Virus record (IMG/VR): IMGVR_UViG_3300027973_000056
Location: 1-64,000 of that record
DNA length: 64,000 bases
Direction: 5' to 3' (one strand)
Origin: a virus
Shown here in pieces: positions 15,858 to 63,776 of the stretch (position 1 is its first letter; every line of letters begins with the position of its first letter). The translations under genes were made by a program, and so were the position numbers. The notes under the pieces were generated by a model. That model worked only from the letters and a program-made list of their open reading frames with translations. It searched no databases and was not told the origin of the DNA.

Positions 15858-15863
15858 AAAAAG

Positions 15864-16283: not shown

Positions 16284-16284
16284 T

Positions 16285-16372: not shown

Positions 16373-16376
16373 AATA

Positions 16377-16406: not shown

Positions 16407-16436
16407 ATCTATTGTATTTTTTTTTTATAAATATTG

Positions 16437-16517: not shown

Positions 16518-16521
16518 ATAC

Positions 16522-16615: not shown

Positions 16616-16617
16616 TG

Positions 16618-16691
16618 TGATTCGGAAAGGATTCGAACCTTTGACCCCAAACTTAGAAGGTTTGTGCTCTATCCAGCTGAGCTACCGAACC
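16618..16691 (-). tRNA. tRNA-Arg(TCT)
   Basis: Acceptor GGTTCGG/CCGAATC, anticodon stem CAAAC/GTTTG with loop CTTCTAA. Confidence 0.95.
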
Positions 16692-16849
16692 AAATTTCCC
16701 CACCTGAAATCCCAGTGAGTAGATATTCGCAGTTTTTCGTATTGAAAAACCCAACGCGTCTTACCGCTTAAAAAGTCAAACATACTCGGTGGCGTTGTTA
16801 CGACCATTCTCCGAGACCCCCTCTTAAGGCCGTGGTAGGAAACAACCAT
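16682..16849 (-). CDS. possible 55-aa basic protein ending inside tRNA-Arg
   Basis: Open frame from ATG 16849 (MVVSYHGLKRGSRRMVVTTP) to a TAG that lies in the first bases of tRNA-Arg. Composition is protein-like (aromatic, basic: RWVFQYEKLR, HWDFRWGN), and GC is higher than its neighbours. It could be a transferred fragment, or chance. The same mRNA-into-tRNA arrangement occurs at 13420. Confidence 0.35.
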   Translation of the reverse strand: MVVSYHGLKRGSRRMVVTTPPSMFDFLSGKTRWVFQYEKLRISTHWDFRWGNLVR

Positions 16850-16899
16850 AACATCTTTAAAGAACGTTACCAAACTTGATGAGTACTTCTAACTCATTG

Positions 16900-16981
16900 T
16901 ATCAGAGGTGGGACTCGAACCCACACGAGCAAAGCTCAACAGATTTTAAGTCTGTCTTGTATACCATTCCAACACTCTGAC
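16900..16981 (-). tRNA. tRNA-Leu(TAA)
   Basis: Acceptor GTCAGAG/CTCTGAT, anticodon stem ACAGA/TCTGT with loop CTTAAAA, class II variable arm. Confidence 0.95.
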
Positions 16982-17021
16982 ATTGTTTTACAAAGATAGT
17001 GAATATCTTTAATAAAGTCAT

Positions 17022-17056
17022 AAAAAAACCCCGAACTTTTTTAGTCGGGGTTTTAA
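17022..17056. terminator. bidirectional terminator
   Basis: AACCCCGA/TCGGGGTT stem with flanking A-run and T-run, between the 17072 gene and tRNA-Leu. Confidence 0.75.
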
Positions 17057-17071
17057 TTATAATAATTATTA

Positions 17072-17791
17072 TTAATCATTAAAACTTTCCTCGTAATAAG
17101 TATCGCTTGCGTTATCTTCTATATTTTCTGTATGAACCAATTCGATTGTCATATCATGAAAATTGAATATAAATTGTCCATCAGAACCTTCATTAATTTC
17201 CCAACCACTATAGTTATCACTAAGCTCTCTGTAACACCAATCTTCAATTGCAGCTGGAACTCCATCACCTGTTTCATTAAAACTACTTTCAAGATATCCC
17301 GAATCACCAGAACCATTATATGTTACTATTAAAATCCCATCGTCAGGAATTGTAAGGTCTTCTAATACTCCACTTTCTTCCCATTCTTCAAATAGCTCCT
17401 TTCCTTGTTCATCCTCCCAAGTAACTGAACTACCTTCTCCTCTAGTATAAAAAGACCACCAACGAGTAAAACTAATTTTTTTAGAATCTACGTCAATGTC
17501 GTATTCAAGTCTTTGATAATTCGTATCATCATTATCAGGTTCTCTAATTAAATTATTATCATCGCAATATTTCATAATTTTTTGAAGTATTGGAATCAAT
17601 CCTGATGGAATATCTGCATTGTAGTTATTAGTGAAATGGGTTACATAATCCCAATCAACATTGTCATAATCAAATTCCTCTTGATTATCCATATCAATTT
17701 CAATGTTGCCGTCTTGCATTCCCATTGAACCTAAGTAATTGGATATTCTTCTTAAATATTGTTTTTCTTCTGGTGTTAAAATTCCTTTCAT
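17072..17791 (-). CDS. acidic hypothetical protein, 239 aa
   Basis: Begins MKGILTPEEKQYLRRISNYLG, a helical start that only partly fits the shared leader (no x-E-Q end). Strongly acidic, rich in Asp, Glu, Tyr and Trp, with many beta-type stretches (DDGILIVTYNGSGDSGYLESSF). TATTTAT lies 4 nt upstream. Family not recognised; the promoter places it with presumed late genes. Confidence 0.7.
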   Translation of the reverse strand: MKGILTPEEKQYLRRISNYLGSMGMQDGNIEIDMDNQEEFDYDNVDWDYVTHFTNNYNADIPSGLIPILQKIMKYCDDNNLIREPDNDDTNYQRLEYDIDVDSKKISFTRWWSFYTRGEGSSVTWEDEQGKELFEEWEESGVLEDLTIPDDGILIVTYNGSGDSGYLESSFNETGDGVPAAIEDWCYRELSDNYSGWEINEGSDGQFIFNFHDMTIELVHTENIEDNASDTYYEESFND

Positions 17792-17795
17792 ACTT

Positions 17796-17802
17796 ATAAA
17801 TA
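17796..17802 (-). promoter_or_regulatory. TATTTAT late-promoter-like motif
   Basis: Reverse-strand TATTTAT with 4 nt before the ATG at 17791. Confidence 0.6.
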
Positions 17803-18156
17803 TCAGTCGTTGAACTCTAGTTTAATTGTTTTTAACATCCATTGAGGACGTTGATTTGTTGATACGTTATTTATCCATTCTTTGGCAGATGGAATGTAGT
17901 TATTACAATCTTCTTTAACATGTTGTTCTCCAACATATCTGGTGTAGACTGTAGTCCCGTCGCTATTCTTAAATTCGGCCCCAAATCTTTTTTCCATTTC
18001 AAAAATACCCTCACTATGATGTCTAAACATTCTATGAAGTGAATCTCCAAACCATCCTTTAGTCTCATCTAACCATTCATGTAGATGAATATAGTCTTCA
18101 GGTTTTCCACCAAATTTTTTGGCGGATGATTTTGCATGTAAGTTAGGGTGTGCCAT
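17803..18156 (-). CDS. DUF6915-like protein
   Basis: 117 residues. The signature HAKSSAKKFGGKPEDYIHLHEWLDETK, here split across the text, with FRHHSEGIFEMEKRFG, TNSDG-like KNSDGTTVYTR and GEQHVKEDC matches what I remember of DUF6915, a small His-rich family frequent in phages and their hosts. The conserved HxxSS, HEW, RHHSEG and GEQH residues could bind metal. Function unknown. It overlaps the upstream gene by 14 nt, so it is co-expressed with the sulfotransferase-like protein. Confidence 0.7.
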   Translation of the reverse strand: MAHPNLHAKSSAKKFGGKPEDYIHLHEWLDETKGWFGDSLHRMFRHHSEGIFEMEKRFGAEFKNSDGTTVYTRYVGEQHVKEDCNNYIPSAKEWINNVSTNQRPQWMLKTIKLEFND

Positions 18157-18721
18157 TTTTCCAAGAGTCTTTATTGTAGTTAAAATATACGAAATCTTCT
18201 TCTAAATAAGAATAAACATAATCAGCCAAATCTTGGTCATAATATTCTTTATAATCATATCCTGATGAATAACCGTTGTTTAAAATGTTATCATACACAA
18301 TATCAAAAAGTTCATGTGAATCATCCATAAAAAATGGAAGTTTTAATATGTCTGAGTATAAATTCTCAACTCTAATTAATAAATCAGGAGTTTTGGTAAT
18401 CCTTTTTTTTAAAAAAAATTCATAATCCAAAGTTTTGCCAGGAAATTTTATTTCTTCATGCAATTTTTGTCTAATCCAACTATTAAAGTCATTAGGAATT
18501 AAATTAGAGTGTATACAAAAAAGATGATATATTGAAATCATTCTGATATATGGATTTCTTGTATTTAAAACAAAAAAATATTCTTCTTTACCTTTTGGAA
18601 TTTGCAAACCATGTAGTCCAATAACGTCAAATTCAAAGTATGTTTGAATAGGCATGCATGACCTTGCTGCCGTTCTAATAGGTGTTGCCCACAATACTTT
18701 ATATTTGTCAGAATAATTCAT
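18143..18721 (-). CDS. sulfotransferase-like protein
   Basis: 192 residues. An N-terminal strand with ATPIRTAARS takes the place of the PAPS 5'-phosphosulfate loop. VLNTRNPYIRMISIYHLF matches the 3'-phosphate-binding RNPxxRxxSxYH motif. The C-terminus (DLADYVYSYLEEDFVYFNY) is the usual sulfotransferase end. The P-loop is divergent, so the activity is uncertain. It might modify a host glycan, a phage surface glycan or a small molecule. Alternative: an inactive homologue. Confidence 0.65.
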   Translation of the reverse strand: MNYSDKYKVLWATPIRTAARSCMPIQTYFEFDVIGLHGLQIPKGKEEYFFVLNTRNPYIRMISIYHLFCIHSNLIPNDFNSWIRQKLHEEIKFPGKTLDYEFFLKKRITKTPDLLIRVENLYSDILKLPFFMDDSHELFDIVYDNILNNGYSSGYDYKEYYDQDLADYVYSYLEEDFVYFNYNKDSWKNGTP

Positions 18722-18948
18722 TATAAAATCTTTTCTTGTCTTCTTCTTGCCATTTCAGCGTCTTTGTACCATCTAATCCAAGTTAAAGACACATCAATTG
18801 GTGCTAACACCCAAGCCATAACCATAACCATAATAGTATCTAATTCAGGAGACCCACCTGTTGGGTCATCACTATACCTTTTACTAAGGTTTTTAAATAA
18901 CTGATAGAAACAATATATTACACATACAAGGTAATATCCAATAAACAT
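18721..18948 (-). CDS. small membrane protein
   Basis: 75 residues from MFIGYYLVCVIYCFYQLF; the start is chosen so that TATTTAT lies 4 nt upstream, as at 5980. Two membrane helices (about 2-18 and 40-58), followed by a basic tail YKDAEMARRRQEKIL. It overlaps the sulfotransferase-like gene by one base. No family recognised. Confidence 0.6.
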   Translation of the reverse strand: MFIGYYLVCVIYCFYQLFKNLSKRYSDDPTGGSPELDTIMVMVMAWVLAPIDVSLTWIRWYKDAEMARRRQEKIL

Positions 18949-18952
18949 ACTC

Positions 18953-18959
18953 ATAAATA
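18953..18959 (-). promoter_or_regulatory. TATTTAT late-promoter-like motif
   Basis: Reverse-strand TATTTAT with 4 nt before the ATG at 18948; it probably drives 18948 to 17803. Confidence 0.55.
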
Positions 18960-18969
18960 AAAATTTTTG

Positions 18970-19042
18970 AGCCTCCTGTCGGACTCGAACCAACGACCAC
19001 TTGTTTACAAAACAAGAGCTCTACCAACTGAGCTAAGGAGGC
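18970..19042 (-). tRNA. tRNA-Thr(TGT)
   Basis: Acceptor GCCTCCT/AGGAGGC, anticodon stem CTTGT/ACAAG with loop TTTGTAA. Confidence 0.95.
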
Positions 19043-19048
19043 TTATGG

Positions 19049-19120
19049 AGCAGATGAGAGGAATCGAACCTCCGTCTCCTACTTGGAAGGAAGGAGTAAT
19101 GACCATTATACGACATCTGC
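19049..19120 (-). tRNA. tRNA-Gly(TCC)
   Basis: Acceptor GCAGATG/CATCTGC, anticodon loop CTTCCAA on a stem with one mismatch, T-loop TTCGATT. Confidence 0.93.
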
Positions 19121-19176
19121 GTGGAGTGCAGTGGGAGGTACCTTCCCTGTGGTTACTACACATTTTATCCACTTTG

Positions 19177-19249
19177 CGGTCCCGACGGGATTCGAACCCG
19201 TATCTCGCACCGTGACAGGGTGGAATTGTAACCATTCAACCACGGAACC
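19177..19249 (-). tRNA. tRNA-Asp(GTC)
   Basis: Acceptor GGTTCCG/CGGGACC with G73, anticodon loop CTGTCAC, T-loop TTCGAAT. Confidence 0.95.
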
Positions 19250-19276
19250 GTGTATGGGGAGTTTCACCCCAAACTT

Positions 19277-19765
19277 TTACTCAACAAAGATATGATTATA
19301 TTCCAATATTCTTCGTTTTAATTTATTAACATATTGTGGGTCCTCGGCATAAACTTTACCGAGTAATGCAAAATATTGTTTTTTTGTCATATCATTACGT
19401 GATTTTAACATGTGGTCTTGCCACAATGAGTAATCATACACGCTATACCCCCAATCTTCGTATTTTGAGTAACCACTTTGGGTTTCCCCAATCTTTGCGG
19501 ATTCTCTTTTACTTGGAACTTTCATTCCAAAAAGATTATTAGCTGATTTGAACAACTTTGATGTAAACTCTCCTGATTCTAATATAGCTTGTGCAAACAC
19601 AATATCAGGAAATTTTATACCATACTTAATTATCTGCTCATACAAACTTTCTTTTGAGATACTCTCTTGAGTATTTGATTCAATCTGTACTTGCTTCTCT
19701 TGTGCTTTGGTTGCCATTGTTCCTAACAATAACATCCCAGTCAATAAGAATGTTTTTAACTTCAT
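19277..19765 (-). CDS. secreted glucosaminidase-like (FlgJ-type) muramidase
   Basis: 162 residues. A Sec signal peptide (MKLKTFLLTGMLLLGTMATKAQ) ends at AQ. The mature domain holds DIVFAQAILESGEFTSKLF, with the catalytic Glu in ILESG, and SANNLFGMK, hallmarks of PF01832 N-acetylglucosaminidases. It ends with LGKVYAEDPQYVNKLKRRI. Secretion through the inner membrane would place it in the periplasm, so it may help in lysis, wall remodelling or release. It lies between tRNA-Asp and tRNA-Asn. A bacterial origin is plausible. Confidence 0.85.
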   Translation of the reverse strand: MKLKTFLLTGMLLLGTMATKAQEKQVQIESNTQESISKESLYEQIIKYGIKFPDIVFAQAILESGEFTSKLFKSANNLFGMKVPSKRESAKIGETQSGYSKYEDWGYSVYDYSLWQDHMLKSRNDMTKKQYFALLGKVYAEDPQYVNKLKRRILEYNHIFVE

Positions 19766-19845
19766 TTCTTTCTTTTTGTCTGTTTATGCTTCAGGATTGC
19801 TCCATCCACGATACTACAACATTGGAATTTTTCCACCTACCGCAG

Positions 19846-19917
19846 AGGCCCCTGTAGGATTTGAACCTACGACCAGTTGATTAACAGTCAACTGCTCTAC
19901 CACTGAGCTAAAGGGCC
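19846..19917 (-). tRNA. tRNA-Asn(GTT)
   Basis: Acceptor GGCCCTT/AGGGGCC, anticodon stem GTTGA/TCAAC with loop CTGTTAA, T-loop TTCAAAT. Confidence 0.95.
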
Positions 19918-19957
19918 TTATAATAATAAATAAAATTTCCAATAAAGGAAACTTTTG

Positions 19958-20031
19958 TCGGGATGGCTGGATTCGAACCAACGGCCTCCACGTCCCAAAC
20001 GTGGCGCGATACCTGACTACGCTACATCCCG
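19958..20031 (-). tRNA. tRNA-Pro(TGG)
   Basis: Acceptor CGGGATG/CATCCCG, anticodon stem CCACG/CGTGG with loop TTTGGGA. Confidence 0.95.
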
Positions 20032-39516: not shown

Positions 39517-39758
39517 AAAATAAAATAGACAAAATCTACGAATCAAAAATCGTACATACTTCATTCTTAGATAAAGAATCCATTGTTGATGCAATGATGG
39601 ATTCTTATATCTTAGGATTAAACGAATCAGAAGAAAAATACAATAAACTTAAATTAGCTTTTGAATCTTTATTAGATTATTGGGGTGATTATGGAAACTA
39701 TAACTCGTCAAGAAATCATATGGAAGAAGATTGGAAAAAAGAAGGAGGATTAATATGA
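39513..39758 (+). CDS. hypothetical protein, 81 aa
   Basis: MKNKIDKIYESKIVHTSFLD, helical, acidic, ending with EEDWKKEGGLI. Overlaps both neighbours by 4 nt (ATGA type). No family recognised. Confidence 0.7.
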   Translation: MKNKIDKIYESKIVHTSFLDKESIVDAMMDSYILGLNESEEKYNKLKLAFESLLDYWGDYGNYNSSRNHMEEDWKKEGGLI

Positions 39759-41080
39759 ACAATATAGATAAACAATACACAGAGTTACTTCAAGACATTC
39801 TTGATAATGGAGTGGAGAAAAAAGATAGAACAGGTACTGGCACAATTTCAGTATTTGGTCGTCAAATACGCCATAACATGAATGAAGGGTTTCCTTTACT
39901 TACGACCAAGAAAATGGCGTGGAAGACTATGGTTGTCGAGTTGTTATGGTTCTTAAGAGGTGATACTAACATCAAGTTCCTATTAGATTATGATTGTCAC
40001 ATTTGGGATGGAGATGCATATAAGAATTATTGTAAATTTATTGAGTCAGATGTAAGTCAGAATAATAAACTTGAAATAGTAAAAATACCCGAATCAAAGG
40101 AAATATTTATCAAAACTATCAAATGTGATGATGAGATTGTAAGAAAAATGGGTAAAAGATATTGTGATGAGTTTGCAAAACAATGGGGAGACCTTGGACC
40201 AATATACGGTAAACAATGGAGAAGTTGGACTAAAAAGAAAATGTATCTATCAACAGATGGTTTATATGAAAACATCTATGATGAGACAGACCAAACTGTT
40301 ATTGACCAAATATCTAGTTTAATCAACGAACTAAAAACAAATCCAGACTCAAGACGATTAATGGTTTCAGCTTGGAATGTTGGAGAATTAGACCAAATGG
40401 TTCTTCCACCTTGTCATTATGGATTTCAAGTTTATACAACTGAATTAAGTGATTTAAGAAGATATAATATTTGGTTTAATAACAACTACGAAACAGGTAT
40501 GGAAAGGTTCTTTGACCCTAAAAACTTACCTGATTTTGATAACCCGTATTATACTCCAACCCCAAAGAGAGCAATCTCCTTAATGTGGAATCAACGTTCA
40601 GTGGATACATTTTTAGGTCTTCCATTCAATATTGCATCTTATGCGTTGTTATTGAATATCATTGCAGAAGAAGTTAATATGGTTCCTGATGAATTGATTG
40701 GTAATTTAGGTGACGTTCATTTATATTCAAACCATATTGAACAAGCAAAAGAACAGATTGGTAGAACGTTAACTTTCGATGAAAGATATGCTTTGTATAC
40801 AGGACATGATAAAACATGGGAAGAAGATGGTGGAAATTCGTATGGTAAAATTAATGGGTTGGATATGATGGATGATAGAGGAATACCAACCAGAACAAGA
40901 GAACCATATCCATTACCGTCAGTTAAAATAACTCATAGAGAATGGTATCAACATGAAAAAGTTAAAGAACATTTAGGTGAAAAAACTTTTAATGAAAAAA
41001 TATTATCATTAAGACCTGATTGTTTTGAATTATTAAATTATAAATCTCATCCACCAATTAAAGCGCCCTTATCAAACTAA
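39755..41080 (+). CDS. thyA: thymidylate synthase
   Basis: 441 residues from MNNIDKQYTELL; a longer in-frame start is overlapped by the upstream gene. KDRTGTGTISVFGRQ is the folate/dUMP entrance, MVLPPCHYGFQVY carries the catalytic Cys, GLPFNIASYALLL has the Asn that selects dUMP, GDVHLYSNHIEQ follows, and the end is HPPIKAPLSN. It is longer than cellular ThyA (about 264-316) because of an insert after DAYKNY (about 90-130) and another around the Tyr-rich segment (about 230-260). It makes dTMP for phage replication; a dUMP hydroxymethylase role cannot be excluded. Confidence 0.93.
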   Translation: MNNIDKQYTELLQDILDNGVEKKDRTGTGTISVFGRQIRHNMNEGFPLLTTKKMAWKTMVVELLWFLRGDTNIKFLLDYDCHIWDGDAYKNYCKFIESDVSQNNKLEIVKIPESKEIFIKTIKCDDEIVRKMGKRYCDEFAKQWGDLGPIYGKQWRSWTKKKMYLSTDGLYENIYDETDQTVIDQISSLINELKTNPDSRRLMVSAWNVGELDQMVLPPCHYGFQVYTTELSDLRRYNIWFNNNYETGMERFFDPKNLPDFDNPYYTPTPKRAISLMWNQRSVDTFLGLPFNIASYALLLNIIAEEVNMVPDELIGNLGDVHLYSNHIEQAKEQIGRTLTFDERYALYTGHDKTWEEDGGNSYGKINGLDMMDDRGIPTRTREPYPLPSVKITHREWYQHEKVKEHLGEKTFNEKILSLRPDCFELLNYKSHPPIKAPLSN

Positions 41081-47099: not shown

Positions 47100-47393
47100 T
47101 TAAAATAACGGTCTTTTATTCCAATAGATATGTAGATTTTTATCGACTCCTAACATTCTAAAAAATCCTGAAATATCAGAATTAATTTTATTAGTAAAAC
47201 TACCTTTGGACCAATCTGGGTCCATATCTAAGAAAAAATTTATTCTATTTGGATTTGATTCTCCAAAATTAATCTTATATATGGTGATTCTTATTGGTTC
47301 ATCGTCATCACCAACCAATTCGTTATTAATTTCTGGTATTATAACGTCATCAATATATACTTGTAAGTATTTTTCAATTTTATCAATATTCAT
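47100..47393 (-). CDS. hypothetical protein, 97 aa
   Basis: MNIDKIEKYLQVYIDDVIIP, alpha/beta, soluble. It follows the tagged 47396 gene by 2 nt and is co-transcribed with it. No family recognised. Confidence 0.65.
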   Translation of the reverse strand: MNIDKIEKYLQVYIDDVIIPEINNELVGDDDEPIRITIYKINFGESNPNRINFFLDMDPDWSKGSFTNKINSDISGFFRMLGVDKNLHIYWNKRPLF

Positions 47394-47395: not shown

Positions 47396-47938
47396 CTAAT
47401 AATTTGAAGAGGAAAGTCCAAGTTGTTTAGAATATCTACCAAGATTACAAGACCAATATCCTGCGGTTGTTCTATCTGTTTTTTGAGAACACTTGCGGTT
47501 CTCTTTAACTATTAATATAGAATTACCAAAAGTTATTTTTTTAACTCCTTCAGTTTTACTCTTAGTATAAACTGCGAATTTCTTAGGATTTCTTGGAGTT
47601 TTACCTTCCGTTAAAATATCATCTTCTGTTTCGTAGATGTAAGGAGCATCTAAATAAACATATTCCTTACCAATTTTAACTTTAATACCTAAATCAGATT
47701 CAACCATCAATCTATCCTTTTTATTAAGGTCAATTTTTCCCTGATTAAATAACTCTCTAACTTCATTAACCAAATTAAAATAACCTTCAGAATAAAACAT
47801 AAATGCATTTTCAGCTAAGGTCATTTCATTATCAATATGATATTGTAACGCGTTTGAAATTTTAACATTCTCTTTCAATATTAAAGATTTGTCTAACTGT
47901 TTCTCTAATGTTTCTTTAATTAATTCACGCAAATCCAT
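47396..47938 (-). CDS. tagged hypothetical protein, 180 aa
   Basis: MDLRELIKETLEKQLDKSLI is the shared basic leader with LIKE and a later ILKE. The middle is helical, while about 100-160 is strongly basic (TPRNPKKFAVYTKSKTEGVK) with C...C near the end. DNA binding in the virion is conceivable. TATTTAT lies 15 nt upstream. Confidence 0.65.
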   Translation of the reverse strand: MDLRELIKETLEKQLDKSLILKENVKISNALQYHIDNEMTLAENAFMFYSEGYFNLVNEVRELFNQGKIDLNKKDRLMVESDLGIKVKIGKEYVYLDAPYIYETEDDILTEGKTPRNPKKFAVYTKSKTEGVKKITFGNSILIVKENRKCSQKTDRTTAGYWSCNLGRYSKQLGLSSSNY

Positions 47939-47962: not shown

Positions 47963-48583
47963 CTAATCTTTTTTAACTTTAATTTTCCAATAAATCCCGC
48001 CATTAATATACGGTGTGAATTCTCCTGATATTCCGTCTGTAGTTCTATTTGCAACTCCAACACCTACTTGATATAAATGGTCTTTTTTAGTTTTTAATAT
48101 TAATCCCATCCCTAAAGAGTTAACCCAATCTTTTTGACTCCAAGAACCATCAACACCAATAAACATTTGATTTTTAATTGGTGGCAAAGGAGGAGCTGAT
48201 TCTCTAACAATTTTTGGTTTAATCGATGCCGACCATTCTCTGGATATTATTTTATTTTGAGAGATACTATCAGACAAGTATAGAAATCCTTGATTATTAT
48301 TCAACTTAATAGTGTCCATATTAATCATTTTAGCATAAAAATTTTTAAGAATTTCTGCGGTATCTACATGTACTAATGTTGGCACATAGATTGTAGTATC
48401 ATGATAAATGTCACTACCTTGAATATATTCAGGGTATGAAATTGTAATGGTATCATGAACCGATTCTCCAGGGATTTCTTTAACCACTTCTTTAATCACT
48501 GTACGATTGTCTCCGTCTAAAAAAAGCACCGCAACAATTAAAGCAAGAATTATAAAATGTCTAATGTCTAATATTTTTTTCAT
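47963..48583 (-). CDS. membrane-anchored protein with barrel-like C-terminus
   Basis: 206 residues. One N-terminal transmembrane segment (FIILALIVAVLFLDG), then VIKEVVKEIPGESVHDTITI, a periplasmic linker with a Pro-rich SAPPLPPIK, and a beta-rich C-terminal part (IGVDGSWSQKDWVNSLGMGL). Inner-membrane anchor plus envelope-spanning length could fit a spanin, but a connector in a secretion apparatus is equally possible. Last gene of the 54.4-48 kb unit, 4 nt after the previous one. Confidence 0.6.
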   Translation of the reverse strand: MKKILDIRHFIILALIVAVLFLDGDNRTVIKEVVKEIPGESVHDTITISYPEYIQGSDIYHDTTIYVPTLVHVDTAEILKNFYAKMINMDTIKLNNNQGFLYLSDSISQNKIISREWSASIKPKIVRESAPPLPPIKNQMFIGVDGSWSQKDWVNSLGMGLILKTKKDHLYQVGVGVANRTTDGISGEFTPYINGGIYWKIKVKKD

Positions 48584-48587
48584 AGTT

Positions 48588-49877
48588 TTACAGCATTAAT
48601 CTTGAACCAATCAAGAAGTTATTAAGAATCGGTGTCTCTTTTTGAGTAGACGCCGAAACTTTATAGTTTAGGCTTAAACCAAATCGTTTACTGATTTTAT
48701 AATCAAACGACGAACCAACTAAAAATCCAAATTGTCTATTAACTGTCGTTTCACCAGTTTTTGAATTCCAACTTAGTGGTGAATTCATAACAAATACTTG
48801 TGGAGATAAAACTATTTTTGGACTAACAGGGAATGGTTTAGTCCAAAACCCAACCACAGATGTTGAAAATGAAACATTAAAAATATCTCTCATCTCTCCT
48901 GTCTTTACATTAACCAACTCTTTATCTTGTAATAATAAAGTAATTGCACCTATATTATATCCATATGTTCCGTATTTTGGATTTGGTATAATGTGGGTAT
49001 ATCCAACAAGATTCATATAATTTCCGTCCAAATAAGCGGCAGTCATAGAATATGAATTAATAGATTCTAACTTACCATTTTTAAAATCCATTTTAGTATA
49101 TCCACCACTTAACGCAAATTGTTTTAATGTACTCCAAATCATACCATTTGCACTCCAACTTTCATTACCCGCCATTGAAGCTTTACTAACACCAAATGAC
49201 GCAATTACACTATACTTTAAATCAGGCCCTTGTGTTGTAGTTAAGTCCGATGCAAATAACATTGGGTTTGCACTAATCGCTTTCTTTTTTTCTTCTTTCT
49301 TTTTCTCGTCAGATTTTTTTTCTTCTTTCTTTTCTTCACTTTTACTCTCAGACTTACTTTCTGATTTGCTTTCTGAAGTTTCTCCTTTTGAATCTCCAGA
49401 CCCACCCTCCGATGAGGATGATTCCCCAGAAGATGATGACGATTGGGAGGATGACGATGAAGATGAAGAGGAGGGTTGAGGTTGTGAGGATGCCGATGAG
49501 CTTGCGGCCGAACCAGCTGCGGAACTTGCTGCCGATGATGCGGCTGAAGAAGCTGCCGCACTTGCCGCTGCAGATACTGCCTGAGTCACTGTTGTTGCTA
49601 CTGTTTGAGTTACTACTGTTGTTGATGGACATGGTGTTGCAAATATTGAATTAACCCATCTGTCTACTTCCCCACTTGCAAATTGAGAATATGTAAAAAT
49701 TTTAGAGGTTCCTCTAATAATAACTAATACTCCTGTTGTAGATTGAATCGGTATTGATACGACATAGGTCTTTAAATCACAAGGGTCCAGGTAGGTTTGA
49801 GTTACTACCTGTCCTTGCGACCTGTGGGTGAGGAAAACCACAAATAAGATACTTAATAATATTTTTAGACCTTTCAA
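48588..49877 (-). CDS. secreted Ser-rich protein with beta-barrel-like C-terminal half
   Basis: 429 residues. A Sec signal peptide (MKGLKILLSILFVVFLTHRSQ) ends at GQ. An N-terminal domain (about 25-90) is followed by an Ala/Ser tract, a Ser run, then Ser/Glu/Lys repeats (about 100-200; SESKSESKSEEKKEEKK). Residues about 205-429 are amphipathic beta strands (YSVIASFGVSKASMAG, ...) ending FLIGSRLML, compatible with an outer-membrane barrel. The low-complexity region may cross the periplasm or wall. Function unknown. Confidence 0.65.
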   Translation of the reverse strand: MKGLKILLSILFVVFLTHRSQGQVVTQTYLDPCDLKTYVVSIPIQSTTGVLVIIRGTSKIFTYSQFASGEVDRWVNSIFATPCPSTTVVTQTVATTVTQAVSAAASAAASSAASSAASSAAGSAASSSASSQPQPSSSSSSSSSQSSSSSGESSSSEGGSGDSKGETSESKSESKSESKSEEKKEEKKSDEKKKEEKKKAISANPMLFASDLTTTQGPDLKYSVIASFGVSKASMAGNESWSANGMIWSTLKQFALSGGYTKMDFKNGKLESINSYSMTAAYLDGNYMNLVGYTHIIPNPKYGTYGYNIGAITLLLQDKELVNVKTGEMRDIFNVSFSTSVVGFWTKPFPVSPKIVLSPQVFVMNSPLSWNSKTGETTVNRQFGFLVGSSFDYKISKRFGLSLNYKVSASTQKETPILNNFLIGSRLML

Positions 49878-49889
49878 TTATATTGTATC

Positions 49890-50606
49890 TTATTTGGTGT
49901 AAATTCCTTTTTTAATCATCCTATCTAAGATTCTAGCACAAGCAATATCAAGAGCTTTTTTAGTTGCAATTGATATTGTTGATTGATTGAATTTAACTGG
50001 GTCTACGGTTGCGTCTGATAATAAAGTTAGTTCTCTTGTTGTCTTTGCTTCACCTAATCCTGATGCTCCAAATACAACTCCTGTTTCTGCATTTGTGAAT
50101 CTTACTTGTAAACCAATACGGGTAACCATTAAATTTTTAACCCCATTTTGTAAATTAACGGTTTCATCTTCGGACACAGAATAATCGTAACACTCAATTG
50201 TTACAAAGTATTGTGCCAAGTTAATTTTACCTCTACCGTCTAATTTATTCTCAGAAATTCCTGCTTGTGATGCTTGGAATTGCTTAACCATTCTATTCTT
50301 AATTTCTGTTTTATCTTCTGTGAATTTAAAACGATTAAGATTTTCAAGGTATTCCATTGAAATATTTGCAACCCCTAACCCAACTCTTTTTTCTTTAAGT
50401 TCAGGATACATCTCATACATTTCGTCTGAGATTCCCGCCTTTAATATTTGTATTGGTATTTGTGGTCCATCGTAATCCAAAAACCGACTAATATCTATTG
50501 CGGTCTCAAAAGATGCTTTATATTGTTCTGTCTGAGTTTTACCTATAGTTTGGCCATAGGAAGCCATTGAGACTAAAAGTCCCGCCATTAATAATATCTT
50601 TTTCAT
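49890..50606 (-). CDS. CsgG-like secreted protein
   Basis: 238 residues. Signal peptide MKKILLMAGLLVSMASYGQT without a lipobox. The body has LGVANISMEYLENLNRFKF, SENKLDGRGKINLAQYFVTI and a C-terminal AARILDRMI-like helix (ARILDRMIKKG), a plan like CsgG/HfaB-type outer-membrane secretion proteins, in which short strands and helices surround a small alpha/beta core. The missing lipid anchor is atypical. If correct it could form an outer-membrane pore for the secreted proteins of this unit. Moderate confidence only. Confidence 0.55.
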   Translation of the reverse strand: MKKILLMAGLLVSMASYGQTIGKTQTEQYKASFETAIDISRFLDYDGPQIPIQILKAGISDEMYEMYPELKEKRVGLGVANISMEYLENLNRFKFTEDKTEIKNRMVKQFQASQAGISENKLDGRGKINLAQYFVTIECYDYSVSEDETVNLQNGVKNLMVTRIGLQVRFTNAETGVVFGASGLGEAKTTRELTLLSDATVDPVKFNQSTISIATKKALDIACARILDRMIKKGIYTK

Positions 50607-50613
50607 ATGTTGA

Positions 50614-50823
50614 TTAATATCTTTTAGGCCATCTCCAGTCTTTTTTTCTACTGTACAGACCTAATAATGTTCCTAACGTAAAGAACTGTATAATCCAAAG
50701 AGGTCCCATCCAATCTGTAGTTCTCATTTCGTTATCAAAATAGAACATAAATCCGATTAGATAGATGATTGATGAGCAAAACAAGATTACTTGTTCAAAC
50801 TCTTGATAGAATTTTTTAATCAT
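50614..50823 (-). CDS. two-helix membrane protein
   Basis: 69 residues. Two hydrophobic helices (VILFCSSIIYLIGFMFYF, PLWIIQFFTLGTLLGLY) and a basic C-terminus KKDWRWPKRY. Holin-like size and charge, but the secretion-operon context leaves the role open. Overlaps the upstream gene by one base. Confidence 0.6.
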   Translation of the reverse strand: MIKKFYQEFEQVILFCSSIIYLIGFMFYFDNEMRTTDWMGPLWIIQFFTLGTLLGLYSRKKDWRWPKRY

Positions 50824-51053
50824 TATTTCTTACCCCCTTCATACCAAATATTATCAGGATTGTCCTTGAACGTTCCGTCTATTTTCCATTCTATCTCATT
50901 TACAATGTTTCTTATTCTTTCGTCTTGACTTGTGAATTGTAAATAAAGAAAAAATACTTGTGTTGATAATGCGAACGCAAGCCATACTCCGACAAATCCC
51001 AAGTATGATTTGAACATTACATCACCGATTTTTTGAAAGTTAATTTTTTTCAT
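50823..51053 (-). CDS. single-pass membrane protein
   Basis: 76 residues. One helix (YLGFVGVWLAFALSTQVFFL), then an acidic, soluble tail (DERIRNIVNEIEWKIDG). No family recognised. Confidence 0.6.
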   Translation of the reverse strand: MKKINFQKIGDVMFKSYLGFVGVWLAFALSTQVFFLYLQFTSQDERIRNIVNEIEWKIDGTFKDNPDNIWYEGGKK

Positions 51054-51077
51054 TTTTCCTCAATTTTTATTTTTATT

Positions 51078-51395
51078 TTACCATTTTGGAGCTTCTTCCT
51101 TGAATTCGTCTCCTTCTTTTTTCTTAGGTTTAGGTGCCACTGTTGCAGGTGCACTAGATTTTTCTTTAATGATTATTGTTTTTCCGCCACCCGCAGCTTG
51201 TTGTTGAGTTTGAGTGTTATTGATGTTAATCACAGGTGCCGCTTGTTGTGTTGCAGGTTTTTCTTCCTCTCCACCAATTAGTTTAGTTGTAACCACACCA
51301 CCAGCACCTAATACGATAGTTGTGACCAATCCAATGATTGTTTTTTTAAGACCTGACCATGTACCGTCATTATGGTCTTGTGTTTCCTCTGACAT
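51078..51395 (-). CDS. membrane protein with disordered Ala/Gln/Pro/Lys tail
   Basis: 105 residues. A cytoplasmic acidic start (MSEETQDHNDGTW), one helix (TIIGLVTTIVLGAGGVVTT), then a low-complexity tail (PATQQAAPVININNTQTQQQ, PKPKKKEGDEFKEE). TonB-like or linker-type architecture; function unknown. Confidence 0.58.
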   Translation of the reverse strand: MSEETQDHNDGTWSGLKKTIIGLVTTIVLGAGGVVTTKLIGGEEEKPATQQAAPVININNTQTQQQAAGGGKTIIIKEKSSAPATVAPKPKKKEGDEFKEEAPKW

Positions 51396-51418
51396 AAAAT
51401 TTGTTTTTTATTTTTAGT

Positions 51419-51775
51419 TTATTTTATTATAATTGGGTACTTCACCTCTTTACCATTAATGTCGATAAAGATAAAATCGTAGTCCTTTTTAGGTAATCCT
51501 GACAAGTCATAAGTTTTTTGAGTTGTCAATTCATTAGCAGTGAACCCGTCTTTTTTAACTGGTTCTTCACTTCCAAAAGGAACGATTTGTACCGAATATT
51601 TTGAACCAACAGTTGTTTCAAAAACTGCCGTTACAATGTTATTAGTTTGATTTATTGATTTAATTGCCGTTGACGTTGACTTAACTCCTAAGTCAATTGT
51701 TACAGGTTCAGGTAATTCTATTTTTGTACAACCCGCCAATACGATTAAGACTAATGCGATAATTGTTTTTTTCAT
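51419..51775 (-). CDS. lipoprotein, 118 aa
   Basis: MKKTIIALVLIVLAGCTKIE: type II signal peptide with Cys16. A single beta-sandwich-like domain follows (VTIDLGVKSTSTAIKS, FIFIDINGKEVKYPIII). Follows the cohesin/dockerin-like gene by 1 nt, so it is co-expressed and may anchor the large protein. Confidence 0.7.
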   Translation of the reverse strand: MKKTIIALVLIVLAGCTKIELPEPVTIDLGVKSTSTAIKSINQTNNIVTAVFETTVGSKYSVQIVPFGSEEPVKKDGFTANELTTQKTYDLSGLPKKDYDFIFIDINGKEVKYPIIIK

Positions 51776-51776
51776 T

Positions 51777-53888
51777 TTAAAAATTTTTATATCCTGTTAA
51801 TTTTATTTGTGTGGTATTCAAGTTAATGCCTAATTGAGTTCCATTGGAACTACTAGCGTCCATTGTTGGAGAAACTTTAACAGATGTTAAAATATCAACA
51901 CCACTTCCTATTGTTGAAAACTTTAATTTGAATGGTGTTAAATTTCCCTTAATTGAAATTTTATTATTTTGGTCAATTGCTCCGAATTTAACTTTACCTT
52001 CTTTTGAATTAACAAAAATGTACCAAGAATTTGGAACCTCTGATTTTAGTTCTTCAAATTTGATTTTTGAATTGTCATAATTAAATTCAAATTGTAATCC
52101 TCCCACACTATTTCCATTTGTATTAAGTGTTATAGGTATTTCAACGTTATTTGACGTTACAGTTACATTAGATAGATTAATATCGATAGATGAAATTTCA
52201 TTTGGTGTATTAATAAATGATGTTGATTGTGTTGCCATAGTTCTAAATGCGGTATTAGTCATTAAACTATTTACAGCATTTGTTTGAATAGTACTTGTAC
52301 CATTTATACTAGTTACAACTTGTGAAGAATGTGAACGATTTACATCTCCCCATAAAAGGTATTTTAAATCAACAATTTCATTTGTTCCTAATACACCTGT
52401 TTTAACATATGTTCTAGGATATGTAATATCTTTCCAATTTGCGGATGTTACTGAACCCCATGAATTAGAAGGATTTGTATTAAATGTAAATTCAGCTTTA
52501 ATACCATAATCGTTATTACCTGAACTTCTTATGTAAGGGGTAAATGTTGAAGTTGACACTGTTGTAAAGCTTGATGGTACTTTGTAGAAAGCCCAGTTAG
52601 CATCTTTACTAACAAATTCAACAGGTCCTGAATACAAGTCAAATAATTGTAAACTTTTAATATCTTCAGGTAATATATTTAACCCGTTAAATTCTCTCAA
52701 ATCAATATATACTCTTGACTGACCTGAACCATATCCGTCAACATTAACAACACACCATTCAACTTGACCTGCGACACTTGTTGCGTCTGTTGTTCTCCAA
52801 GTAGGTAAACTCATATAACCATTACTGCCCATAACATATCCTGTTGGTACAGTTACAAGTGTGTCTAATCCAACAACCTGAGCCAATAATCTTGGTAGGT
52901 CTCCTCCATCTATGATTTTATTTCTGTTTATGTCGGCCGCGTATAAAGATTGACCCGTTTTTAAAATTTGACCGTTACTACCATCTAATCCCATTGATGT
53001 AAATTCACCTTGTGCTGTAGTAAAATCTGATATTGTGATTGCTCCGTTATATATCGCATTTGTTTTATCTATGTTGTGCATTACAGTCACTTCATAAATT
53101 TTATTTTCAGATAATAATGATTGATTAATATCTACATTACCATTAGATAAAACATTGAATAATTGTCCAGTATTACTAACAGTATCTCTAAAAGAAACTT
53201 TAACATCTGATATTGCAAGTAAATTAGAACTAATATCAACTTTAGCGGTTAAAAGTTTGCCTGTATTTTGGTTCATTATAACCTCAGTTGATAATGGGGT
53301 GTCCATAAATGTTGCAACTCCGATACCTTGAGCGTTCCATCCAGCAACAAAGTTTAATTTAACAGGATTAAACGAATTTGATGTTGACGCAGCCTTTAAT
53401 CTAAACCTTACAATTAACATTCTATCATAAGATGTGTATGGCATTGATGAAGTTGTTGCCCAAGTTATTGTAGCCCTAAGAATTGCATTAGACCCAGTAG
53501 GGTTATATACGTAAGTTGCGTTAGCCGTATATCTTTGAGTGCCGTTTGTGTAAGTACTATTTCCCCCATAAGAATAATTCGGGTAATTCTGCCATGATAG
53601 TTGTATATTAGAACCTGATGGAAGTATTCCTCCGTTTCCACCTGTACCTGTATGGTTAATTGAAACTACCTCAAAGTTTGTTTGGTCATATTGGAAATCA
53701 AACATTAACTGCCTTGTAACCGCATCACTATTACCATTTGCATGGACTATAACATCAAATTGGTCTCCTCTATCAATAACTCCACCGTTAATATCGGTAA
53801 GAACTCTTGTGTCAGGGAACTTAAATTTAATTTGACTAAATGATGTTAAGGACAATAGTAAAAGTCCTATTGTTAAAAGTTTTTTCAT
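51777..53888 (-). CDS. large secreted cohesin/dockerin-like protein
   Basis: 703 residues. Signal peptide MKKLLTIGLLLLSLTSFSQ. Residues about 20-185 and 575-690 look like cohesin-type beta sandwiches (DQFDVIVHANGNSDAV, LMFDFQYDQTNFEVV; NVEIPITLNTNGNSVG, LQFEFNYDNSKIKFEEL). About 315-335 has a dockerin-like Ca-binding helix (YAADINRNKIIDGGDLPRLL), and about 520 WGDVNRSH a second partial one. Cohesin and dockerin pairs assemble extracellular complexes. In a phage this may form a surface or adhesive structure made in infected cells. A self-association role is inferred. Confidence 0.68.
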   Translation of the reverse strand: MKKLLTIGLLLLSLTSFSQIKFKFPDTRVLTDINGGVIDRGDQFDVIVHANGNSDAVTRQLMFDFQYDQTNFEVVSINHTGTGGNGGILPSGSNIQLSWQNYPNYSYGGNSTYTNGTQRYTANATYVYNPTGSNAILRATITWATTSSMPYTSYDRMLIVRFRLKAASTSNSFNPVKLNFVAGWNAQGIGVATFMDTPLSTEVIMNQNTGKLLTAKVDISSNLLAISDVKVSFRDTVSNTGQLFNVLSNGNVDINQSLLSENKIYEVTVMHNIDKTNAIYNGAITISDFTTAQGEFTSMGLDGSNGQILKTGQSLYAADINRNKIIDGGDLPRLLAQVVGLDTLVTVPTGYVMGSNGYMSLPTWRTTDATSVAGQVEWCVVNVDGYGSGQSRVYIDLREFNGLNILPEDIKSLQLFDLYSGPVEFVSKDANWAFYKVPSSFTTVSTSTFTPYIRSSGNNDYGIKAEFTFNTNPSNSWGSVTSANWKDITYPRTYVKTGVLGTNEIVDLKYLLWGDVNRSHSSQVVTSINGTSTIQTNAVNSLMTNTAFRTMATQSTSFINTPNEISSIDINLSNVTVTSNNVEIPITLNTNGNSVGGLQFEFNYDNSKIKFEELKSEVPNSWYIFVNSKEGKVKFGAIDQNNKISIKGNLTPFKLKFSTIGSGVDILTSVKVSPTMDASSSNGTQLGINLNTTQIKLTGYKNF

Positions 53889-53889
53889 T

Positions 53890-54381
53890 TTATTTTATTT
53901 CAAATAATTTATTTACCAATTTGTTACTAGATTTTTTTAACGCATTACTTAATGATTGCTGGTTAAAATTACCACCATTATCAATCGCCAATGTTGACAT
54001 TGATATTTCTGAAGATTCCTCTTCAACAATAACTTCTTTGATTTTTTTACCGTCGTGTTTTAAAATTCCTTTAAGTCGGATTACAACGGATTCTGCGTCC
54101 TTGTGAAAAACAGAAAGATTTGATTTGGTTTTTAATACATCTAAATAAATGATGTCAATTGTAACTTTATCCTTTGATTCTGGATTAAGTTCAAAATCTT
54201 TCTCTTGTAAAAATTCTTCTACTACGTTTTTTACACCAAACTCAAGGTTACGGTTACCCGCAAGGTTTCCTATTTGAATCTTGTTAGAAACAGATTCAAC
54301 CCATATTTCTTTTGTTTGGTCTAAATTGTTTGATGATAGAGTGAGCATTCCGCACACTACTAGTAGTAGAAGTTTGTTCAT
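53890..54381 (-). CDS. secreted protein, LptE/CsgG-partner-like
   Basis: 163 residues. Signal peptide MNKLLLLVVCGMLTLSSNN (the Cys11 is inside the hydrophobic core, so lipidation is unlikely). The mature alpha/beta domain (VKNVVEEFLQEKDFELNP, VTIDIIYLDVLKTKSN, SLSNALKKSSNKLVNKLFEI) resembles periplasmic outer-membrane assembly factors. First gene of the secreted run; TATTTAT lies 22 nt upstream. Confidence 0.58.
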   Translation of the reverse strand: MNKLLLLVVCGMLTLSSNNLDQTKEIWVESVSNKIQIGNLAGNRNLEFGVKNVVEEFLQEKDFELNPESKDKVTIDIIYLDVLKTKSNLSVFHKDAESVVIRLKGILKHDGKKIKEVIVEEESSEISMSTLAIDNGGNFNQQSLSNALKKSSNKLVNKLFEIK

Positions 54382-54448: not shown

Positions 54449-55552
54449 ATGTCGGTCCTTAATGAAGAATTAGATAAAATATTGTCGGTAATGAAAATAG
54501 TTTCAGAGCAGGAAGATTCAAATGAACAAATGAATGTTAATTTGAAAAAAACTGTGGAAGTATTAAAATATCTTAGATTATATTCTAAAAATATTGAAAA
54601 AATGTTGGTGGAAATCAGCGTCATGGGTACATCTCAAATTATAGATTTTCATTTATTAGAAAGAGGTCTTAAAACAGTATTACTTAAAAAAGGAGATAAA
54701 AAGAAAAACGTTGAAGAATATTTTAATAAAATTATTTCATCATTAAAATTAAGAGATAAATCAGGATATGGTCCTGATTCAGATGATGATTATGGATTTG
54801 AAGTTGAGGAACCTTCTATTGTACCTAAAAAGGTATATAGAAAAGAAATATTTGAATTACAAGTAGAGCTATTAAAAATGCAAGAATGGTTGAAAGAATC
54901 AAATAGAACCGTAATTATCGTGTTTGAAGGTAGAGATTCTGCGGGTAAAGGAAGTACAATTAAAAAATTTACAGAAAATCTTAATCCAAGATATTATAAT
55001 ATTATCGCATTAGGAGTCCCAACTCCTGAAGATAGACAAGATTGGTGGAACAGATATAAAAAAGAAATTAAACCAGGAATGATTAATCTATTTGACAGAA
55101 GTTGGTATAATAGAGGTTTAGTTGAGCCAGTAATGGGGTATGGTAGTCCTGAAGAATATGAAGATTTTATGAAGAATGTAGAAGGATTTGAAATGGATTT
55201 GGTTAAAGAAGGAGATTACCTTTTTAAATTATGGTTTTCAATTGACAAAGGAACACAAAAAAGAAGATTTGATATTAGACAACAATCTCCATTAAAATAT
55301 TGGAAATATTCGCCAAACGATTCTAAAATGCAAGATTTATGGGATAGATTTACAGAATTTAAAGAAAAACTATTCGATAAAACTTCTACAATTAATCACC
55401 CATGGGTTATTGTTGACGCTGAAGACAAAAGAGTTTCAGGTTTAAACGCAATTAGATATATTCTACAAAATTTACCTTATAAAGGTAAAGACGAGAAGGT
55501 TTTAGACAAATCTTACCCTGAAGCATTAGCAGTTTTAAGACCAAAATCATAA
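54449..55552 (+). CDS. tagged polyphosphate kinase 2 (PPK2)
   Basis: 367 residues. The catalytic domain (about 145-345) has VFEGRDSAGKGSTIKKFTEN (Walker A near 161), FDRSWYNRGLVEPVMG (Walker B and lid Arg), and WKYSPNDSKMQDLWDRF. It transfers phosphate between polyphosphate and nucleotides. The N-terminus (MSVLNEELDKILSVMKIVSE then Q) is the shared leader, followed by about 100 helical residues absent from typical bacterial PPK2. A leader on a metabolic enzyme suggests injection with DNA to make nucleotides from host polyphosphate at once (inference). Confidence 0.88.
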   Translation: MSVLNEELDKILSVMKIVSEQEDSNEQMNVNLKKTVEVLKYLRLYSKNIEKMLVEISVMGTSQIIDFHLLERGLKTVLLKKGDKKKNVEEYFNKIISSLKLRDKSGYGPDSDDDYGFEVEEPSIVPKKVYRKEIFELQVELLKMQEWLKESNRTVIIVFEGRDSAGKGSTIKKFTENLNPRYYNIIALGVPTPEDRQDWWNRYKKEIKPGMINLFDRSWYNRGLVEPVMGYGSPEEYEDFMKNVEGFEMDLVKEGDYLFKLWFSIDKGTQKRRFDIRQQSPLKYWKYSPNDSKMQDLWDRFTEFKEKLFDKTSTINHPWVIVDAEDKRVSGLNAIRYILQNLPYKGKDEKVLDKSYPEALAVLRPKS

Positions 55553-61382: not shown

Positions 61383-61634
61383 TTACTCTTCTGTTGAGTC
61401 AGACTTTCCTTTATTAATCCATTTGTCGATGGAACCGATTCCAAAAGACCCTAAAACTAACCATAAGAATGCATTAAAAATGAATTCGTTGATTACTAGG
61501 TCTTTCCCTAATGAACCTGTAACAATGTCTGCAATTGCAAACGCTGTCATCATAATAAAAGCTAAAAAGCCTACAACAGATTTCTCGTTGATTGTGTTGT
61601 TGTCGTTAAACAACTGTGCAAAGAATTTTTTCAT
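61383..61634 (-). CDS. holin-like membrane protein
   Basis: 83 residues from MKKFFAQLFNDNNTINEKSV; an upstream TTG extension is less likely. Two hydrophobic helices (VVGFLAFIMMTAFAIADIV, FIFNAFLWLVLGSFGIGSI) with a charged C-terminus (DKWINKGKSDSTEE). Size, topology and position near the endolysin and fibre genes fit a class II holin, but other small membrane proteins look alike. Confidence 0.6.
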   Translation of the reverse strand: MKKFFAQLFNDNNTINEKSVVGFLAFIMMTAFAIADIVTGSLGKDLVINEFIFNAFLWLVLGSFGIGSIDKWINKGKSDSTEE

Positions 61635-61657
61635 AATATTTGGTAATTTACTTACCA

Positions 61658-61664
61658 ATAAATA
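61658..61664 (-). promoter_or_regulatory. TATTTAT late-promoter-like motif
   Basis: Reverse-strand TATTTAT 23 nt before the ATG at 61634. Confidence 0.4.
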
Positions 61665-61676: not shown

Positions 61677-63776
61677 CTAAGATACTACAACATTGATTGA
61701 TGTTCCTGAAACAAATTGTGTTGATGCTGCTTGAATCATTTGTGCCGACCTAGTCACCACAAGACGAATTAAACTAGCAGTTCCAACATAATCTGCGGAA
61801 GTTCCTGAGTAAATCGCTGTACTACTTCCTTGACTTATTGTTATTGTTCCGCCCGAATTATCTAATGTTGAGAATTGTGACGCGTAACTTGTTCCAACTG
61901 TATTAATATTATTAAAGCTTAAGTTTAATGTTCCACCAGTATAGTTTGGATTGTACACTGATTTACCCAAACCATTATAAAATGCTGTTTCACCATTGTT
62001 ATTTGGCGCTCTTGTTATAGTTGCACCATTAGCAAAAAAGAAGAACCAACCTCCTCCTGGTGTCGGAGTTGGAGTAGGAGTTCCTGTTGTTGTCACTGTC
62101 GGTGTTACCGATGCAGTTCTTGTTGGTGTTTGAGTATTAGTAGGAGTTAGTGTTGGTGTTGGTGTTGGTAATGAAGCTTCACAATCATCACAATTCGAAT
62201 AGAAAGTTAGTGGTGAGCCTGTATCTGTTGGGGTAGCAACAATCTTATTGACGATTCTATAACATCCACTTGGCGTTGCTCCTGTAAATGTCATGTTGAA
62301 TACATCACCTGGTGCAAATGCTCCTGGTCCTAAATCAGCGACTAATACATTCAAAGTAGTACATCCTGAAATTGTGTAAGTTGTGGTTGTTCCGTCAATA
62401 CAATCGGCACAATTAGGATAGGAAGATATTGGGTTACCACCATCTGTAGGTGTTGCGTTGATTTTATTGATAATTGTGTAACATTCAGTTGCAGTCGCTC
62501 CTGTAAAGTCCAAATAGAATGTATCACCAGGGAAAAATGCTCCTGGTCCTAAATCAGCGACAATAACATTTGAACTACTACATCCTGAGATGGTGTAAGT
62601 GGTAATCGTACTTAAATCAGTTGAAGTTGGTGTTTGTGTTAATGTTGGTGTAACTGATGGTGTTTGAGTATTTGTTACACTTGGCGTAGGTGTAATTGTA
62701 TTAGTTGGTGTTTGAGTATTAGTAGGTGTCGGTGTTGGCGTTACCGCTACTGATGTTTCTGTTGGAGTTGGAGTTGGTGATGGTCCATAACCGTATCTTG
62801 ATTTAGTTGTGTTATAGATTCCTAAAATTTCTGCTGATGTTAATCCTCTGTCATAAATTGATACTTCCCCTACATTACCGTTCAAAAACTCATTACCACC
62901 AGTTTTTGCAATCTGCAATGCACTTGTAACAACATTATGTCCGACAGGAGTATCCGAACCAACTGAAGTACCATTAACATATATACTTCTTGTTGTACCA
63001 TCATAAGTTGCAACAACATTAAACCAATCTGTCGCTGAAACAGAAGTAACCCCCACTAAATCATTAGCCCACCAATAATTTAACAACACACCAGTTGCCG
63101 CTGTTCTAAGTGCGTTTGATTGATTTGTAGTACCAAATGACCCAATACTCATAAGTCCACTACCACCCCAATTAGAACCAAGTTGAACCCATATTATAAA
63201 AGTATAATTTTCATTTCCTATAGGTAGATTGGAACCTGATGGATTATTAAACCAACCGTTTGCTCCTGTTGAAAAATAAACAGGTGATGAATTATTCCAA
63301 GCAATACTACCTGAATTTACCATTGTGACATCGTTTCCATTACCACTTATATCATACCAAGTGGTTCCTGTACCAGGATAGCTTGATAAATTATTGGCAT
63401 CCAAATATAAAACAGGTCCACCATACGAATTCCAATAACCATTATTTGTTAACCATGTACTAGCCTCTGTTGCAGACGTAAAATTTTGATTAAACTCATT
63501 ATTTGTTAACTGAAGAAAAGAAATATCAGTCAAATCTGTTGACTTAAAAAATCCAACTGATGCGGTTACTCCTGAGATTGGTGTTGGTTGAGTATTTCCT
63601 GAAACAGGAACGGCAATAACATACCCATCTGATTCTTCGGGTCCCATCCACCAAGTAACTCCTCCTGGTTCTATACTATAATCTTGGTCAGCTATTCCAA
63701 CCGCCAAACTTCCTACTTGTGTTGTTCCCGCAATTGGTGACGCACTTGGGTTATACGATAAAGGTGTTGTTGCCAT
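61677..63776 (-). CDS. LamG-domain, Thr/Pro-repeat fibre-like protein
   Basis: 699 residues. Residues about 125-315 form a LamG/concanavalin-like domain (LYLDANNLSSYPGTGTTWYD, ISGNG). Thr-Pro linkers follow (about 335-385), then two tandem repeats of about 70 residues (TTYTISGC...VADLGPGAFFPGDTF..., CADC) and a second Thr-Pro linker (about 545-575). The C-terminal domain is beta-rich. This layout fits a tail-fibre or virion decoration protein that binds glycans. The Thr-Pro DNA is near-repetitive, so length variation is expected. Confidence 0.75.
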   Translation of the reverse strand: MATTPLSYNPSASPIAGTTQVGSLAVGIADQDYSIEPGGVTWWMGPEESDGYVIAVPVSGNTQPTPISGVTASVGFFKSTDLTDISFLQLTNNEFNQNFTSATEASTWLTNNGYWNSYGGPVLYLDANNLSSYPGTGTTWYDISGNGNDVTMVNSGSIAWNNSSPVYFSTGANGWFNNPSGSNLPIGNENYTFIIWVQLGSNWGGSGLMSIGSFGTTNQSNALRTAATGVLLNYWWANDLVGVTSVSATDWFNVVATYDGTTRSIYVNGTSVGSDTPVGHNVVTSALQIAKTGGNEFLNGNVGEVSIYDRGLTSAEILGIYNTTKSRYGYGPSPTPTPTETSVAVTPTPTPTNTQTPTNTITPTPSVTNTQTPSVTPTLTQTPTSTDLSTITTYTISGCSSSNVIVADLGPGAFFPGDTFYLDFTGATATECYTIINKINATPTDGGNPISSYPNCADCIDGTTTTYTISGCTTLNVLVADLGPGAFAPGDVFNMTFTGATPSGCYRIVNKIVATPTDTGSPLTFYSNCDDCEASLPTPTPTLTPTNTQTPTRTASVTPTVTTTGTPTPTPTPGGGWFFFFANGATITRAPNNNGETAFYNGLGKSVYNPNYTGGTLNLSFNNINTVGTSYASQFSTLDNSGGTITISQGSSTAIYSGTSADYVGTASLIRLVVTRSAQMIQAASTQFVSGTSINVVVS

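Follow-up and report, generated by a model that had tools for sequence, protein, structure and literature searches.

A conserved run of genes encoding exported proteins is found in many large viruses that infect aquatic Bacteroidota, and we put at roughly 0.6 the probability that this operon builds an envelope-spanning apparatus which changes the surface of the infected cell, with the blocking of superinfection as its likeliest purpose. The operon was analysed in a stretch of 64,000 nucleotides (referred to below as the window) taken from a 66.6 kb IMG/VR virus record.

The initial annotation had described nine consecutive minus-strand genes for signal-peptide, lipoprotein or membrane proteins; all nine open reading frames (ORFs) were located and each bears such a feature. 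Sec signals were found on g1 (53890-54381, 163 aa), COH (51777-53888, 703 aa), g7 (49890-50606, 238 aa) and BAR (48588-49877, 429 aa), and the 118 aa lipoprotein g3 (51419-51775) has the lipobox VLAGC. Single transmembrane (TM) segments are present in g4 (51078-51395, 105 aa, with a Gln/Pro/Lys-rich C-terminal tail), g5 (50823-51053, 76 aa), the small membrane protein g6 (50614-50823, 69 aa) and g9 (47963-48583, 206 aa), which consists of an N-terminal membrane anchor, a periplasmic part and C-terminal beta strands and is confined to the subclade of the window. The intergenic gaps are -1 to 24 nt, so that the genes likely form one transcription unit. With no larger gap, the run extends on the same strand into two further genes without signal peptides (47396-47938, 180 aa, and 47100-47393, 97 aa), the second of which is by spacing the final gene; the whole unit thus comprises about 11 genes and ends at 47100. 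A promoter and terminator scan gave a signal no better than that of shuffled sequences. Two overlapping out-of-frame ORFs at 49241-49632 lie within the low-complexity linker of BAR and are probably by-products of its repeats.

Several features around the module were recorded. A 367 aa protein encoded directly upstream on the opposite strand (54449-55552) reads as a polyphosphate kinase 2 and occurs only in the closest relatives. The window holds an unusually full tRNA set for a phage, with 21 tRNA genes clustered on the minus strand at 11182-20031 and one tRNA-Ser at 45431. In a 449 aa thymidylate synthase (39731-41080) the Pfam match takes 333 residues to cover 225 profile positions, which makes an insertion likely.

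The distribution of the module was followed through g7, for which at least 485 relatives were confirmed in IMG/VR viral contigs (the best 80 of 485 were kept). Among 50,697 phage records, matches were limited to isolates of Flavobacterium phage immuto, whose CsgG-like sequence used as a query gave 113 relatives among viral contigs. A close bacterial origin of the gene was considered and rejected: a single-sequence scan of the GTDB genomes gave no match, and a profile scan gave two contigs of metagenome-assembled genomes, one (254 kb) with phage tail-collar-like genes and clearly phage, the other (12.6 kb) with the same module beside an endolysin gene.

In all 80 loci flanked by enough sequence on each side (full-flank loci) the CsgG-like gene is accompanied by COH-family, BAR and g1/g5-family genes, the last being a merged class owing to fused forms in relatives, and in none of them is a core gene on the opposite strand; g4 was found in 72. 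Two gene orders, g1-COH-(lipoproteins)-g4-(small TM proteins)-CsgG-BAR and COH-g4-CsgG-BAR-g1-COH, together account for most loci. By a simple rule made for this analysis, Sec or lipoprotein signals were called on 91% of COH, 98% of BAR and 97% of CsgG-like proteins in 162 related loci, against 7% of the other ORFs of at least 100 aa in the same loci, which is not chance. The operon is a recurrent, conserved phage module. The self-contained envelope or surface apparatus proposed in the initial annotation has good support from this co-conservation on one strand, together with the signal peptides and the folds described below.

A model of g7 was calculated with AlphaFold2 (mean pLDDT 76) and searched with Foldseek. 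The top 15 PDB matches were all CsgG (4uv2, 6l7c, 4uv3; best E 1.5e-7, TM-score about 0.5), followed by FlgT, GNA1162, PelC and LptE, and the single BFVD match at E <= 0.001 was the CsgG of an uncultured phage. At the level of fold, then, the earlier description of g7 as CsgG-like holds, but Pfam CsgG (PF03783) gave no match to the window protein and was reached by two of 54 relatives (best E 1.9e-4). An hhalign comparison with Escherichia coli CsgG was not significant, and the CsgG-like alignment, used by itself as a profile against the PDB, returned nothing useful. For the nonamer that had been envisaged the outcome was mixed: the CsgG fold was recovered, whereas the signature of the two amphipathic membrane-barrel hairpins is not evident and the hairpins have no lipid-facing pattern. 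The first hairpin region of the family contains invariant acidic residues at 146-148, the second falls about nine residues short of its E. coli CsgG counterpart by visual count, and the monomer model has only one long hairpin. A lipobox is present on 38 of the 162 CsgG-like relatives and absent from g7 of the window. Because membrane hairpins are not evident, g7 is assigned on its predicted fold to the CsgG superfamily and no CsgG pore is claimed; it may not be a channel.

The earlier description of the Ser-rich protein as barrel-like is correct. In the structure model of BAR, a low-confidence N-terminal helix and a Ser/Lys/Glu-rich linker accompany a barrel of 12 strands with pLDDT mostly 80-92; the N-terminal domain has two Cys residues that are invariant in the family. 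In fold searches the porin NanC (the top PDB match) and the amyloid exporter FapF (Foldseek E 4.9e-7) matched about equally, and BAR is accordingly modelled as a 12-strand outer-membrane barrel resembling both. A CsgG fold next to a barrel of this kind could also indicate a pore in the outer membrane, used for uptake or secretion in the service of phage metabolism and having no part in adhesion. Such a pore leaves unexplained the cohesin/lectin-family proteins that accompany it in every full-flank locus, and we regard it as improbable.

Of the two cohesin-like regions proposed for COH, the C-terminal one (PF00963, residues 580-672) was detected by Pfam above the cut-off (E 1.2e-6), and the family cohesin profile gave 19 PDB matches, by name cohesin-bearing or scaffoldin-related chains apart from one or two otherwise named. 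The N-terminal one was rejected (profile comparison probability 2.5%; PDB search negative). The dockerin-like calcium motif noted earlier is present near residue 318 as one good loop, but no more than one, since a second GDxN at least about 80 aa away is degenerate; the best PDB matches of the family profile are dockerins, at a modest E of 0.004. The suggested cohesin-dockerin pairing is thus borne out only in part, by one cohesin and one dockerin-like loop.

COH denotes here the proteins of one operon position, grouped by single linkage through chains of similarity and not forming one domain family; among 59 of them, Pfam found a cohesin in 26, a C-type lectin in 23, a dockerin (PF00404, best E 6e-4) in 16 and a type IX sorting tail (PF18962) in 14, and LamG, GEVED and Ig domains also occur. 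Pfam detects the type IX tail in the immuto-like clade (for example at E 1.9e-11) but not in COH of the window. Tail positions were matched to the module loci in four records, namely immuto, whose genome is complete, and three contigs with lengths of 159-309 kb; each record has a single type IX tail, and this falls on the module's COH gene. In immuto this is gp15, a cohesin protein annotated as 'cohesin domain-containing', beside gp13, a lectin with a dockerin-like C-terminus, and gp14, an Ig-like protein. Judged from these domain assignments, the cargo appears to vary between loci on a fixed base. A diversity-generating retroelement acting on the lectins was considered and rejected, no reverse transcriptase being found in 20 records. 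Among locus pairs in which the CsgG-like proteins are 80-95% identical, BAR is 56-64% and COH 60-72% identical, with only part of the pairs scored, among the BLAST matches listed, and with the relative conservation of the CsgG-like protein inflated by the gathering of loci through similarity to g7. The diverging COH and BAR are putatively the exposed components.

Phage fibres often contain lectin and LamG domains, and the module proteins might on this ground be fibres or decoration of the virion. Sec signals in more than 90% of members, plus type IX tails, make such a structural role very unlikely. The LamG virion-type protein of the window itself (61677-63776) also argues against it, having no signal peptide, unlike the core proteins of the module. 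The gene for that protein adjoins a copy of the small membrane-protein family F7 (61383-61658), which lies inside the module in relatives.

The smaller proteins gave weaker matches. That of g1 to the YajG-type domain Lipoprotein_16 is below the cut-off (best E 6.8e-5), and a PDB search with its alignment gave nothing; g1 and g7 share a C-terminal FNQ-x-S/T...KK motif (hhalign E 7e-5, probability 63%), and many relatives have a fused form of g1, preceded by an inner-membrane anchor that is homologous to g5 of the window. Known superinfection-exclusion and defence families were sought in PHROGs and PADLOC and none was convincing: PADLOC found no system, and the one match, of g3 to Cor (E 2.4e-4), is weak because it covers residues 1-65 including the lipoprotein signal. 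Family F5 (L021:3679-4395), whose members have two TM segments, DxDGDG loops and a pair of Cys residues at the C-terminus, was found in 51 of 80 loci and is absent from the window; in most of these loci it lies between g4 and the gene for the CsgG-like protein. Family F13 (L001:8202-8780), a Sec-exported EndoG-type nuclease, was found near the module in 23 of the 80 full-flank loci; in the periplasm it could cut incoming phage DNA. Family F9 (L111:5174-5620) is a signal-bearing 148 aa protein with an HExxH-like HESRH motif, often encoded divergently from the module.

The proteins g5, g6, F5 and F7 resemble holins in their small size and one or two TM segments. In 62 of 76 cases the module and an endolysin gene are no more than 1.5 kb apart, in two the endolysin gene is inside the module, and in 18 it adjoins F7. 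The module could accordingly act with the endolysin encoded nearby, either breaching the outer membrane or setting the time of lysis; a lysis role was proposed for the CsgG of the OM43 phage Melnitz (PMC9004378). We consider this unlikely. Known holin-endolysin-spanin cassettes have no place for large lectin/cohesin proteins with type IX tails, and in immuto the neighbours of the module are genes for replication and nucleotide functions, the gene annotated as a glucosaminidase being about 8 kb away.

On the preferred reading, the module probably gives the infected Bacteroidota cell a remodelled outer surface. The proteins would be exported by Sec and BAR would be placed in the outer membrane. 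The CsgG-fold protein g7 and g1 would form a periplasmic collar, joined through g5 and g4 to the inner membrane, and the lipoproteins would belong to the same envelope-spanning assembly, which would place or anchor the cohesin/lectin proteins on the surface. For the immuto-like clade, transport of the cohesin protein over the outer membrane would fall to the host type IX system. There BAR and g7 cannot act simply as the exporter of this protein, and may instead serve to export the partners with dockerin tails or to anchor the layer. In the clade of the window the cohesin proteins would reach the surface by the module itself or by another route. Once there, they would hold dockerin-tailed lectin or LamG proteins, and the resulting coat would mask receptors and keep other phages from superinfecting.

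Receptor masking is, tentatively, the likeliest purpose, and fits the variable exposed parts (COH and BAR) and the occasional exported nuclease. A more doubtful, second purpose is the gluing together of cells, in which a cohesin/lectin coat would make infected cells or debris stick to fresh hosts, bringing new cells within reach of the released virions. The lectins fit it, as do the LamG, cohesin and dockerin-like domains on exported proteins, and such a role was proposed for curli-bearing pelagiphages (PMC7029224, PMC9599517). Cultures of Melnitz, on the other hand, showed no clumping (PMC9004378), and since the anatomy would be the same as for receptor masking, sequence cannot separate the two. 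Against a surface apparatus as a whole count the lack of a type IX tail on COH of the window, the one convincing calcium loop of the dockerin-like unit, the hairpins of g7 and the proximity of the endolysin, which also fits a role in lysis.

Phage control of the infected-cell surface has been described for single proteins and for the pelagiphage curli. Here a conserved module of about ten genes is found in hundreds of phage contigs from environmental metagenomes and in a cultured representative, immuto, with which the question of why phages build a surface apparatus becomes directly testable. A CsgG-fold protein with a separate barrel is possibly a new route of outer-membrane assembly. More speculatively, large Bacteroidota phages may carry their own cohesin-dockerin surface scaffold and a dedicated CsgG-fold/12-strand-barrel assembly machine, a type of secretion and display system not observed in cells, and re-coat the infected cell with lectins by it.

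The initial annotation knew of no described phage system of this make-up. For this composition the statement stands in the literature searched, and no report that links a phage surface system to cohesin or dockerin was found in the open literature (most subscription papers lay outside the search); it does not stand for CsgG itself, as phage CsgG and curlin fibres have been published (PMC7029224, PMC9599517, PMC9004378). Cellulosome display resembles the module in having a cohesin on a surface-targeted protein (gp15 of immuto) and dockerin-like tails on neighbouring lectin or Ig proteins; it differs in that the module has no catalytic cargo that we could see and a dockerin-like unit with one good calcium loop, its cohesin-dockerin pairing being putative. 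Genes with type IX tails are known from Bacteroidota phages, namely a cryoconite phage and the BACON proteins of crAss-like phages (PMC7468147, PMC6949934). Their products are likewise addressed to the host type IX system, but these genes were reported singly and not within a conserved envelope operon. The periplasmic CsgG/ABD-fold proteins PelC, GNA1162 and FlgT share with g7 a CsgG fold without an evident membrane hairpin, and the likeness to the PelC type includes a CsgG-fold protein adjoining a barrel protein, although the module has no polysaccharide synthase. FapF of the Pseudomonas Fap system resembles BAR in its 12-strand barrel after a periplasmic N-terminal region, but other 12-strand barrels (NanC) score equally and no Fap fibre proteins or genes were found in the module.

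Pelagiphage curli operons were reported with CsgG and CsgF (PMC7029224, PMC9599517) and with curlin-repeat fibres (PMC9599517), and Melnitz with CsgG and CsgF (PMC9004378); these papers offer much the same list of possible roles. In Pelagibacter phage HTVC008M (L167:6818-9910) two proteins with visible curlin-type repeats follow CsgG, in agreement with PMC9599517. A tblastn search with E. coli CsgG found only the pelagiphages and OM43 phages reported to have curli and a 1.5 kb Salmonella record. No Pfam match to CsgF or curlin-repeat partners was obtained among the nine module proteins at E <= 1. The phage type VIII (curli) operon (CsgF-CsgG-curlin repeats-FecR) and the module have in common a CsgG-superfamily protein, small membrane proteins and exported adhesive proteins, and that of HTVC008M lies near replication genes, as does the immuto module. 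They differ in that sequence comparison with E. coli CsgG fails to pick up g7, that g7 shows no membrane-hairpin signature, that the cargo is cohesin/dockerin/lectin and that a separate 12-strand barrel is present. The nearest precedent is thus the curli of SAR11 and OM43 phages, to which the module is analogous in kind, with proteins that differ beyond the shared fold.
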